Positions 1,503-5,423 of a stretch of DNA of 64,000 nt are shown piece by piece. The stretch's first letter is position 1. Every line of letters starts with the position of its first letter. This DNA is from Luteolibacter sp. LG18 (GTDB taxonomy: Bacteria; Verrucomicrobiota; Verrucomicrobiia; Verrucomicrobiales; Akkermansiaceae), in assembly GCF_036322585.1 (NCBI RefSeq), contig NZ_AP024600.1:1674001-1738000 (forward strand), read 5' to 3'. Under the pieces are notes generated by a model. It was not told the origin of the DNA, ran no database searches, and saw nothing but the letters and a program-made list of their open reading frames with translations. A program made the position numbers and the translations under genes.

Positions 1503-1967
1503 ATGTCCGAATCCCACATTCCCGAAGGCTACCACAGCGTTACGCCGTCTCTGACCGTGGCCGATGCGCCCGCCGCGCTGGCATTCTATCAGGCCGCGTT
1601 TGGCGCGGTGGAGATCTTCCGCATGCCGGATGAGAAGACCGGCAAGATCATGCACGCCGAGATCGCGATCGGGAATTCCCGCCTCATGCTTTCCAGCGAG
1701 TTCCCGGAATGGGGCTGTGTGGCTCCGGAGGTGGGGACGGGCGGGGCGTTCATGATCTACGTGGCCGATGTGGATGCGGCCTACGCTCAGGCGGTTGGGG
1801 CGGGCGCTACCTCCCTGCAGGAGCCCACCGACATGTTCTGGGGCGACCGCACCTCGCGGGTGGCGGACCCGCACGGCTACCGCTGGAGCCTCGCCACCCA
1901 TGTCCGCGACGTGTCCCCGGAGGAGATCGCGAAGGCGGCGAAGGAGTGGGATTGCAACGCGTCCTGA
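1503..1967 (+). CDS. VOC superfamily protein (glyoxalase/PhnB-like)
   Basis: 154 residues from the ATG at 1503; an in-frame GTG at 1482 would add seven residues but is less likely. The sequence starts HSVTPSLTVADAPAALAFY and continues through MHAEIAIGNSRLML to a C-terminal DPHGYRWSLATHV, the pattern of PhnB/glyoxalase-like members of the vicinal oxygen chelate fold. These are metal-dependent or metal-less enzymes acting on diverse small molecules; the substrate cannot be read from sequence. The stop is 3 bases before the KefF-like gene, so it is probably the first gene of the efflux cluster. A role in aldehyde or methylglyoxal handling would fit that neighbourhood but is inference. Confidence 0.85.
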   Translation: MSESHIPEGYHSVTPSLTVADAPAALAFYQAAFGAVEIFRMPDEKTGKIMHAEIAIGNSRLMLSSEFPEWGCVAPEVGTGGAFMIYVADVDAAYAQAVGAGATSLQEPTDMFWGDRTSRVADPHGYRWSLATHVRDVSPEEIAKAAKEWDCNAS

Positions 1968-1970
1968 ACC

Positions 1971-2534
1971 ATGGAGGACGTGCTGGTGATTTTCGCGCAC
2001 CCGGCCTTCCACCGGTCGCGCACGAACCGCGCCCTTGTCGCCGCGGCCCGCGCGACCGAGGGGGTGGCGGTGCATGATTTGTACGAAACCTATCCGGATT
2101 TCCTGGTCGATGTCCGCGCCGAGCAGCGGCTGTTGGAACAGTACCGCACGGTGGTGCTCCAGCACCCGTTCTTCTGGTACAGCAGCCCGGCCTTGCTGAA
2201 GGAGTGGCTCGACCTGGTGCTCCAGTTCAACTGGGCCTACGGGCCGGATGGCCGCGCGCTGCGGGGCAAGGTGCTGGCCCAGGCGATCACCGCCGGCGGG
2301 CCGGAGGACGCCTACCGGCGGGAGGGCACGAACCACTTCTCGGTCCGCGAGCTGCTCTCGCCCTTCGAGCAGACCGCGCGCTTGTGCGGCATGGCCTATG
2401 CCGAGGCGTTCACGGTCCACGCGGCGAACCATATCACGGAGGAGACGCGGGACGAGGCGGCCCGGGACTATAGCCGGTGGCTGACCTCACTTCGCGCCGG
2501 TTCCGTCTCGCTCTGGTTGCCGGGGCCGGAGTAG
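1971..2534 (+). CDS. KefF/KefG-like NAD(P)H oxidoreductase
   Basis: 187 residues with a flavodoxin-like fold of the NAD(P)H dehydrogenase (quinone)/KefF-KefG type. The N-terminus VLVIFAHPAFHRSRTNRALV holds the FMN-binding beta-loop, followed by HPFFWYSSPALLKEWLD and ITAGGPEDAY, motifs typical of the family. In E. coli KefF and KefG are ancillary subunits needed for full activity of KefC and KefB. The gene lies 3 bases after the VOC gene and 3 bases before a KefB/C-type antiporter, which supports the same partnership here. No signal peptide is present, as expected for a cytoplasmic membrane-associated subunit. Confidence 0.9.
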   Translation: MEDVLVIFAHPAFHRSRTNRALVAAARATEGVAVHDLYETYPDFLVDVRAEQRLLEQYRTVVLQHPFFWYSSPALLKEWLDLVLQFNWAYGPDGRALRGKVLAQAITAGGPEDAYRREGTNHFSVRELLSPFEQTARLCGMAYAEAFTVHAANHITEETRDEAARDYSRWLTSLRAGSVSLWLPGPE

Positions 2535-2537
2535 TCC

Positions 2538-4436
2538 TTGGGAGCAGTGGCGTTCGAAAGTGTTTTCCTCCAGGCGTTCATCTACCTTGCCGCGGCATTG
2601 GTCGCGGTGGTGGCTGGGAAGCGGCTCGGCCTCGGGGCCGTGCTCGGGTATCTGATCATCGGCGCGGCCATCGGGCCGTGGGGCCTCGGCTGGATCGGCG
2701 GGGAAAGCGAGCAGGTCACCCACTTCGCGGAGTTCGGGGTGGTGGTGATGTTGTTCCTGGTGGGGCTGGAAATGCGGCCCACCGAGTTGTGGCGGATGCG
2801 ACGGCAGATTTTCGGGCTGGGCGGCATGCAGGTGGTGTTGTGCGCGCTGGGTCTTGCCGGAGCGGCGGTGGCCTTCGGCTGCCATTGGAAGCCCGCGCTG
2901 GCGATGGGGATGATCCTCGCGATGTCGAGCACCGCCATTGTCCTGCAATCGCTGGCGGAGAAAAACCTGCTGCGCACCGAGGCCGGCCAGAACTCGTTTG
3001 CGGTCCTGTTGTTCCAGGACCTGGCGGTGATCCCGATCATCGCGCTGCTGCCGCTGCTGGCCACCGGTGCGGCGCATGGAACCGCCGGACACGCGTCGCA
3101 CGATTGGATGGAGGGCTGGCCGGCGTGGGGGCGGGGCTTGGTCACGGTCGGTGCCGTGGTGCTGGTGGTGGTGATCGCGCGGCTGGCCACGCGGCCCTTG
3201 TTCCGCGCCATCGCGAAGACCCGCCAGCGCGAGGCTTTCACCGCCGCGGCGCTGATGCTGATCATCGGCATCGCCCTGCTGATGACGAAGGTGGGACTCT
3301 CCGCCGCGCTCGGCACCTTCGTCGCGGGCGTGGTGCTGGCGAACAGCGAGTACCGCCACGAGCTGGAAAGCGACCTCGAACCGTTCAAGGGGCTGCTGCT
3401 CGGGTTGTTCTTCCTCGGCGTGGGGGTGGGCATCGACTTCGGGCACATCGGGCGTTTCCCCGGCACCGTGCTCGGTCTCGCCGCCGGGCTGATCGTGGTG
3501 AAGGCGGTGATGATGTACGCGCTCGCGCGGCTCCACCGCTCGCCCCGGGAACCGTCGTTCGTGTTCGCCGCGGCGCTCGCGGGTGGCGGCGAGTTCGCAT
3601 TCGTCTTGATCGGCCTGGCGCTCGGCTCCGGGGTTTTCGATGAAAGCCAGGGGAAAACCCTCACCGCCGGGGTGGCCATCTCGATGGCAGCCACGCCCCT
3701 GCTGATCCTTGCCAGCCACCGCCTCACCGCCCGCTCGATGAAGAAGCCGGTGGTCGAGCGGGAGAGTGACGTGCAGGACGAGGGCGCGCCGGTCATCATC
3801 TGCGGTTTCGGCCGCTTCGGTCACATCATCGGTCGCCTGCTGCGCACCCAGGGCATCCACAGCACGGTGCTCGACAATGATCCGGACCAGGTCGACACGC
3901 TGCGGGCGATCGGCATGCCGGTGTTCTTCGGGGACGCGGGTCGGCCGGACATGCTGCTCACCGCCGGGGCGGCGCGGGCGAAGATCCTCGTCATCGCGCT
4001 GAAGGACGTGGCCACGACGCTGAACATCGTGGAGACCGCGCGGAAGCACTTCCCGCACCTGAAGATCTTCCTGCGCGCGCACAGCCGCGCCGAGGCCTAC
4101 GAGCTTCTGGACGCGGGGGAGGAGCGGATCTATCGCGACACGCTGGACACCTCGCTCACGCTGGCCACCGACGTCCTGCGCGAGCTCGGCACCCCGGCCT
4201 ACACCGCCTACCGCGTGGCGAAGCTCTATCGCCGCCGCGATGAGATCTTCCTCCGCAAGATGGCGAAGCACCGCCACAAGGACGACGACGCTTTCATCTC
4301 CGCCGCGCGCGAGGTCCAGCGCACGCTCGACCAGGTCATGCGTGAGGAGCCCGGCCACGACTTCGGCGACGAAGGCTGGGTGCCGCCCGGTGCCGATCCG
4401 AATGCCAAACCTTCTCCCAAACCCGAATCCTTATGA
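2538..4436 (+). CDS. KefB/KefC-like glutathione-regulated K+/H+ antiporter
   Basis: 632 residues from a TTG at 2538; a GTG at 2547 would shorten it by three residues. The first 390 residues form a CPA2 Na+/H+ exchanger domain with about 12 membrane segments (GYLIIGAAIGPWGLG, LAMSSTAIVLQSLAEK, VLLFQDLAVIPI, ESDLEPFKGLLLGLFFLGVG). From residue about 418 an RCK/TrkA-N domain begins with VIICGFGRFGHIIGRLL, a Rossmann nucleotide-binding motif. The similarity to E. coli KefB is visible along its whole length. Kef systems release K+ and acidify the cytoplasm when glutathione adducts of electrophiles accumulate. Residues beyond about 570 form a short charged tail. The stop overlaps the next start (ATGA). 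Confidence 0.93.
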   Translation: MGAVAFESVFLQAFIYLAAALVAVVAGKRLGLGAVLGYLIIGAAIGPWGLGWIGGESEQVTHFAEFGVVVMLFLVGLEMRPTELWRMRRQIFGLGGMQVVLCALGLAGAAVAFGCHWKPALAMGMILAMSSTAIVLQSLAEKNLLRTEAGQNSFAVLLFQDLAVIPIIALLPLLATGAAHGTAGHASHDWMEGWPAWGRGLVTVGAVVLVVVIARLATRPLFRAIAKTRQREAFTAAALMLIIGIALLMTKVGLSAALGTFVAGVVLANSEYRHELESDLEPFKGLLLGLFFLGVGVGIDFGHIGRFPGTVLGLAAGLIVVKAVMMYALARLHRSPREPSFVFAAALAGGGEFAFVLIGLALGSGVFDESQGKTLTAGVAISMAATPLLILASHRLTARSMKKPVVERESDVQDEGAPVIICGFGRFGHIIGRLLRTQGIHSTVLDNDPDQVDTLRAIGMPVFFGDAGRPDMLLTAGAARAKILVIALKDVATTLNIVETARKHFPHLKIFLRAHSRAEAYELLDAGEERIYRDTLDTSLTLATDVLRELGTPAYTAYRVAKLYRRRDEIFLRKMAKHRHKDDDAFISAAREVQRTLDQVMREEPGHDFGDEGWVPPGADPNAKPSPKPESL

Positions 4437-5326
4437 TCACTCCCGCCGACCTTGCCGCGGAGCTCGCCTCCGCCAACCCGCCCGTGGTCCTCGATGTCCG
4501 CCTCGCGGACGATTACGAGGCCTGCCACATCACCGGCGCGCTGAACAACGCCGTCTTCGAGGTGGCCTGCAACGAGCGCTTCCCCGCCCAGCTCCCGGAC
4601 AAGGCCCGCGCCGTGCGCCTCTACGGGGCTTCTGGTAACAGCCTGGAGGCCCGCATGGCGGTGGAGAAACTCCAGCGCGCGGGCTACACCGACGTCGCGG
4701 AACTCGAGGGCGGTCTGGAGGCCTGGTTGGAGGCGGGGCTGCCGAATACCTGTGGTGCTCCGCTGCCGCCCGCGCCGGAGGTGCCCGAGGGCCGGGTGCT
4801 GGTGGATCTGGAAGCCTCCAGAGTCGGCTGGACCGGCCGGAACCTGCTCAACAAGCACCACGGCACCATCGCCATCCGCTCCGGTTGGCTCGATCTCGCC
4901 CACGGCCGTCTCACCGGCGGCGAGATCGTCCTGGATCTGACGCGCCTCGATTGCAGCGACCTGTCCGGCACCGAGTACCACGCGGTGCTGATCCACCACC
5001 TGCACGACCACGATTTCTTCGATGTCGCGCGGTTCCCGGAAGCCCGTCTCACGATCACCTCCGCCACCCATCTGGAGGTTGGCACGCCCGGTGCGCCGAA
5101 CCTGCACCTCGCCGCGGAGCTGACGCTGAAGGGGCAGACCCATCCGATCGAATTCGCCGCCACCTGCGGCCTCACCCCGGACGGCAAGGCCGCCGCGCAG
5201 GCGACCTTTTCCATCGACCGCACCCGCTGGGGCGTCCTCTACGGTTCCGGGAAATTCTTCCACCGCCTCGCGGGGCACCTCGTGAACGACCTCATCGATT
5301 TCGAGGTGAAGATCGTGACGGGGTGA
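4433..5326 (+). CDS. Rhodanese-like / YceI-like fusion protein, rhodanese Cys absent
   Basis: 297 residues. Residues about 1-105 form a rhodanese-like domain (VVLDVRLADDYEACHITGA, ELEGGLEAWLEAG). At the active loop the sequence is RLYGASGN, so Gly65 occupies the position of the catalytic Cys (normally YCxSG), which should abolish sulfur transfer. Residues about 120-297 form a YceI-like domain (HGTIAIRSGWLDLAHGRLTGG, HDHDFFDVARFPEARLTI, RTRWGVLYGS), a lipocalin-like beta-barrel that binds isoprenoid or amphiphilic ligands in known members. There is no signal peptide, unlike most YceI proteins, so it should be cytoplasmic. The start overlaps the kef stop, so it is the last gene of the cluster. 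Confidence 0.85.
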   Translation: MITPADLAAELASANPPVVLDVRLADDYEACHITGALNNAVFEVACNERFPAQLPDKARAVRLYGASGNSLEARMAVEKLQRAGYTDVAELEGGLEAWLEAGLPNTCGAPLPPAPEVPEGRVLVDLEASRVGWTGRNLLNKHHGTIAIRSGWLDLAHGRLTGGEIVLDLTRLDCSDLSGTEYHAVLIHHLHDHDFFDVARFPEARLTITSATHLEVGTPGAPNLHLAAELTLKGQTHPIEFAATCGLTPDGKAAAQATFSIDRTRWGVLYGSGKFFHRLAGHLVNDLIDFEVKIVTG

Positions 5327-5334
5327 TCCGTTCC

Positions 5335-5423
5335 GTAGCCGAAGTCGTGACACTTCGGGCTGGGTGGACGGCCTCATACCCTTCGCGAATTCACCCCGCC
5401 TGAAGTGTCATCACTTCAGCTAC
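5335..5423. repeat. GTAGC...GCTAC nested-palindrome element A
   Basis: An 89-base element between the convergent ends of the fusion gene and a lipoprotein gene. It begins GTAGCCGAAGTCGTGACACT and ends as the near reverse complement of that sequence. Each terminal arm is itself a hairpin (GAAGT..ACTTC). It resembles elements at 14308, 15523 and 19737 in design but not in arm sequence. It may act as a bidirectional terminator for the two converging genes. Confidence 0.7.

Follow-up and report, generated by a model that had tools for sequence, protein, structure and literature searches.

Kef is the standard example of a K+ efflux system gated by glutathione. In E. coli it is shut by glutathione and opened by glutathione adducts (PMC10224563, PMC11150392), and the Q412K substitution in E. 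coli KefC abolishes inhibition by glutathione (PMC11150392). KefF, the ancillary subunit of KefC, is a quinone reductase (PMC10224563). Here we describe a Kef locus in a 64,000-nt stretch of the genome of Luteolibacter sp. LG18 (positions 1,674,001 to 1,738,000 of NZ_AP024600.1, hereafter the window), in which the genes for KefF and KefC lie between those for a VOC-fold protein and for a fusion of a rhodanese-like domain that lacks the catalytic Cys to a YceI lipocalin-like domain. The Verrucomicrobial genome is complete, i.e. a single contig of 5.8 Mb. The arrangement is real and recurrent, no description of it was found, and it is a variant of Kef electrophile defence.

The four genes were identified at 1503 to 5326 of the window, all on the + strand, in an earlier note on this DNA; their reading frames and spacing have been verified and the domains confirmed by Pfam and NCBIfam. 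The VOC gene (ATG, 1503 to 1967) is followed after 3 nt by that of KefF (1971 to 2534; Flavodoxin_2 1e-45), a flavodoxin-like quinone oxidoreductase that aligns with E. coli KefF and reaches the NCBIfam equivalog cut-off (PRK00871, 211.3 bits; cut-off 210). After another 3 nt comes the TTG start of KefC (2538 to 4436), preceded by GGAG at 7 nt, and the ATG of the fusion gene (4433 to 5326) overlaps the KefC stop by 4 nt (ATGA). The genes are probably co-transcribed; a scan for sigma-70 promoters gave nothing exceeding chance. KefC is a CPA2 K+/H+ antiporter with a KTN/RCK domain (Na_H_Exchanger 2e-59, TrkA_N 1e-24) that matches the solved KefC structure 8bxg at 1.8e-146, and scores 685 bits against the NCBIfam KefC equivalog, below the cut-off of 752. 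It keeps the E. coli transport residues D156, H259, E262 and D264 and most of the adenosine monophosphate residues, and the KTN domain is 46% identical. The locus therefore shares with KefFC and KefGB of E. coli a minimally spaced KefF-KefC pair, a CPA2 antiporter with a KTN domain and an ancillary subunit of the quinone-reductase type.

It differs from them in its glutathione pocket, in lying in a genome where no gene for glutathione synthesis was found, and in being coupled to the fusion and VOC genes within a cluster of pirin and quinone-reductase genes. The glutathione-contacting residues Q412, R416, R498, D499 and R516 are H, R, H, S and R in the window KefC, so that only R416 and R516 are kept. 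Using Kefs on plasmid-collection records as the yardstick set, Gln412 is found in 9/9 KefCs from Pseudomonadota versus 1/19 from Verrucomicrobia at similar overall divergence, and Asp499 in 8/9 versus 3/19, while R416 is kept in all KefCs of both groups. The two main gshA families (PF04262 and PF04107) have no match in the complete genome, nor does BshC of bacillithiol synthesis, the controls matching in each case. PF08886 has no match either, but its control was silent too. The sole match to GSH-S_ATP (PF02955) is RimK, and was rejected as a glutathione synthetase. The cells might still take glutathione up. A survey lists no documented or predicted low-molecular-weight thiol for Verrucomicrobia (PMC6282198). 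There is an exception to the absence of glutathione synthesis among the genomes compared, i.e. an 823-aa GshF-like open reading frame in G041 (L093).

The VOC protein, similar to YjdN, At5g48480 and TioX (Pfam Glyoxalase 4e-18, TioX 3.5e-10), gives no match to the NCBIfam glyoxalase I equivalog; only general VOC models match, and the structures it matches are of the TioX/At5g48480 type. The E. coli glyoxalase reaction would not in any case run without glutathione. The gene lies beside KefFC or the fusion in four relatives, and we assign it to the Kef unit because its position next to KefF is conserved. Combination of a flavin reductase with a glyoxalase-fold protein in one cluster recalls the E. 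coli electrophile operon nemRA-gloA (PMC3739934). Unlike that operon, the present cluster has LysR instead of NemR and VOC instead of GloA, together with the Kef genes and the added fusion.

Exported YceI proteins have ubiquinone-8 or other isoprenoids as their ligands (PMC9113575), and the rhodanese domain of TBC1D23 is a docking module (PMC7274447). The fusion comprises a rhodanese domain (residues 4-100, 3.8e-14; approximate extent 1-105) and a YceI domain (residues 124-294, 6e-20; approximate extent 120-297). The latter makes a ligand-binding barrel to be expected, as in the YceI lipocalins BcnA, E. coli YceI and T. thermophilus 1WUB. The fusion differs from these in lying behind a Cys-less rhodanese, in its own invariant motifs (W-G-N..H.G and DR....YGSG), in a conserved Cys174, and in its location. 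No signal sequence of the kind that marks exported YceI lipocalins is seen on inspection and the rhodanese half begins at residue 4, so by sequence the YceI half is cytosolic, as had been proposed.

The rhodanese domain is present without the catalytic Cys required of a sulfurtransferase, Gly65 aligning with the Cys of the solved rhodanese 6mxv. Fusions were found in 17 genomes on searching 59 relatives, in 20 of 288 genomes of the phylum and in 44 of 384 of the class, samples that overlap. All 56 aligned fusion homologues, which are from Verrucomicrobiota, have Gly at this position, whereas lone rhodaneses of related genomes have Cys in 8/9; the loss is therefore ancestral to the family, and a local mutation, which the earlier note had held open, is rejected. 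Cys-less rhodaneses with this motif exist elsewhere, since Alr3790 (3hix) also has Tyr-Gly there, and TBC1D23 would resemble the fusion in binding instead of catalysis (PMC7274447). What sets the fusion apart from both is its joining to YceI, kept so across Verrucomicrobiota. Two other cysteines are frequent in the family. Cys174 in the YceI half (window 4952-4954) is present in 47/56 fusions, with Ser, Asn or Thr in the other nine, and the companion and free-standing YceI proteins with which it was compared lack it. In the rhodanese half, Cys40 occurs in 46/56, the window protein having Ala instead. When 84,980 species genomes were scanned with peptide patterns of the fusion, an approach that reaches close relatives only, fusions appeared solely in Verrucomicrobia, and the matches in Bacteroidota were YceI-only. 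Plasmid-borne fusions were also sought and rejected, plasmid records containing only a lone YceI in Hymenobacter.

The genes are recurrently co-located in relatives, as conservation of gene order would require. The VOC-KefF-KefC unit is kept in three genomes, including L109 and L108; in the latter pirin, YceI and YkuD are close by and the fusion is elsewhere in the same genome. The fusion adjoins KefF or KefC in at least three lineages and in two gene orders, and Old Yellow Enzyme (OYE) or pirin in others. Thus L039 has fusion-KefF-KefC, L083 has LysR, pirin, YceI, OYE, fusion, KefF and KefC, and L044 has LysR, pirin, OYE, fusion and KefF, reaching the contig end. L045 has LysR, pirin, fusion and OYE, and L031 and L032 have pirin-YceI-OYE-WrbA-YkuD-VOC-fusion without Kef. 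Of the 73 proteins encoded immediately beside the fusion, four are OYE, more than of any other family; Ada/AlkA, isochorismatase and SBF-like transporters each occur twice and an intradiol dioxygenase once, families that suit quinone, carbonyl and alkylation damage.

Kef-linked fusions are scattered in the fusion tree, whose well-supported branches require the Kef-linked label to change at least three times; by a rough estimate, 0.013 linkages would be expected by chance over 30 independent lineages. The association extends to whole genomes. In the sample of 288 from the phylum the fusion is present in 12/18 genomes with KefC versus 8/270 others (p 4e-12), and on collapsing to genera in 8/13 versus 6/138 (p 6e-7). 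For KefF the corresponding numbers in the phylum sample are 9/12 versus 11/276.

The locus extends upstream past the start of the window, so that VOC-KefF-KefC-fusion is the distal part of a longer cluster (window positions are L085 positions minus 12001). The minus strand has genes for DoxX, LysR and a DUF2314 protein, divergent from pirin; pirin is followed by a lipoprotein of the YceI family, a flavoprotein similar to WrbA, YkuD, DUF2251, VOC, KefF, KefC and the fusion. The second YceI gene, of lipoprotein type, lies upstream of the window (L085:10774-11415), so the cluster pairs exported and cytosolic YceI domains. The 198-aa WrbA/FMN_red-family flavodoxin, resembling NAD(P)H:quinone reductases (FMN_red 1.6e-16), is encoded on the + strand at L085:11478-12074 (window -523 to 73), its 3′ end occupying 1 to 73. 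It is followed on the same strand by a lipoprotein of YkuD L,D-transpeptidase fold (161 to 745; 3.7e-23), with homologues in the clusters of relatives L031, L032, L033, L071 and L108, and, overlapping this by 4 nt, a DUF2251 protein (742 to 1149; 3.5e-27), for which no counterpart was matched in the clusters of relatives compared. An imperfect inverted repeat with 32-nt arms (84%) begins 9 bp past the fusion stop (5335 to 5423). It has no second copy in the window and none in the loci of other species, and is possibly a transcript end or an element like the repetitive extragenic palindromic sequences. Elsewhere, three genomes of family f4 have a 4-nt overlap of the fusion with the gene for a protein of 527-558 aa that belongs to no recognised family (L035:6070-7659, L036:8226-9902, L037:8623-10206), with a weak alpha/beta hydrolase match in one of the three. 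In two other genomes an SBF-like transporter of the CPA superfamily lies 3′ of the fusion (L156:3353-4363, L158:6954-7937).

Pirin, WrbA-like proteins and OYE act on quinones and related electrophiles. That the cluster serves electrophile defence is well supported by its longer gene content, by the repeated occurrence of the fusion beside Kef and beside OYE and pirin, and by the co-occurrence of KefC and fusion. The earlier note's overall reading as an electrophile-stress cluster is upheld to this extent, with the pirin, quinone-reductase and LysR context and the recurrent VOC-KefF-KefC unit behind it. Two parts of that reading are not supported: activation by glutathione adducts, given that no gshA, gshB or bshC was found and Gln412 and Asp499 are replaced, and the VOC protein as a glyoxalase I. 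A further part, tuning of the antiporter by the fusion, is a tentative one.

The explanation we favour, although we regard it as evenly balanced between right and wrong, is that the fusion is a non-catalytic cytosolic ligand-binding or adaptor protein of electrophile defence that has been recruited to a glutathione-independent Kef. The four genes would form the distal end of a defence cluster linked to LysR, and the reactive electrophiles that it counters would most likely be quinones and carbonyls of similar aromatic or unsaturated type. KefF would reduce quinones and activate KefC, which would exchange K+ for H+, so acidifying the cytosol and protecting thiols; the system would run here without the E. 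coli switch between glutathione and its adducts. By analogy with TBC1D23 the Cys-less rhodanese half could provide a docking surface, as an interaction or scaffold module. The YceI barrel, by analogy with exported YceI proteins, may bind a hydrophobic ligand such as an isoprenoid quinone or an electrophile adduct. The fusion might then sequester this ligand or pass it on to flavin reductases (KefF, OYE and the WrbA-like protein), and where its gene joins the kef operon it may contact and signal to KefC, perhaps replacing glutathione as the input.

A number of observations weigh against this explanation. The window KefC retains R416 and R516, D499 has been lost in KefB too, and R498 and N551 do not discriminate between Pseudomonadota and Verrucomicrobia, as both groups show variation there. 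G041 combines its GshF-like reading frame with an altered KefC pocket, so the pocket change does not simply track loss of glutathione; independence of the window Kef from glutathione gating is consequently likely on comparison of the sequences, not proven. Outside the family of the window most fusion loci have no recognised stress neighbour. The co-occurrence tests allow for descent by genus collapse alone, with genome size and lifestyle uncorrected, and an AlphaFold model of the fusion made from four sequences had a predicted local distance difference test score of 39, so that it was not used and no pocket was seen. Lastly, a close KefC (cut at the ~45% identity class) is lacking from 14 of the 30 genomes with the fusion that were tested. 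The fusion therefore works without Kef in many species, and an obligate Kef subunit is rejected. The same figure, with the unrelated neighbours at many loci, would suit a general cytosolic carrier of lipids or quinones that has no functional tie to Kef and in some lineages merely shares its promoter with stress genes. We consider this rather unlikely, given that the fusion is linked to Kef at least three separate times, in two gene orders, and that they co-occur across genomes even when the genes are unlinked.

The locus could instead encode an ordinary glutathione-gated KefFC with a glyoxalase, where VOC would make S-lactoylglutathione, KefC would open and the fusion would be an accessory. 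KefF passes its equivalog cut-off, KefC matches the E. coli structure over its full length with R416 and R516 kept, and SdKef is glutathione-gated despite having neither R498 nor N551 (PMC10224563). Yet such a system is improbable in a complete genome where no gshA or gshB was found, with Q412 replaced by His and D499 by Ser, and with a VOC protein that fits no glyoxalase I model. Retention of Cys174 or Cys40 in most of the family, the former absent from the other YceI proteins compared, might indicate that the fusion is still redox-active, whether as thiol sensor or as persulfide carrier. Known sulfurtransferase sites include neither residue, Cys174 is replaced in 9/56 and Cys40 is missing from the window protein, all of which makes this quite improbable. 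Lastly, octaprenyl phosphate can be a ligand of YceI proteins (PMC9113575) and YkuD is kept in the cluster of close relatives, so the YceI domain might handle polyprenyl phosphates for wall synthesis. This is the least probable of these explanations; unlike the cytosolic fusion, YkuD has the look of an exported protein, and it is missing from L039, L044, L045 and L083.

Literature on rhodanese or YceI with KefC, pirin with YceI and LysR, pirin with KefF, or Kef without glutathione yielded no account of the cluster. The analysis defines a fusion family of 56 aligned members with ancestral and invariant loss of the rhodanese Cys. The presence of Kef in a phylum without a known low-molecular-weight thiol raises the question of what switches Kef on in the absence of glutathione. 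We suggest, tentatively, that Verrucomicrobial Kef is gated by another input, either some low-molecular-weight thiol of the phylum or a quinone or electrophile ligand brought by the fusion, in which case the fusion would be a new type of Kef regulator. A second question is which thiol the Verrucomicrobia use, and the KTN domain of KefC could be the bait for that thiol.

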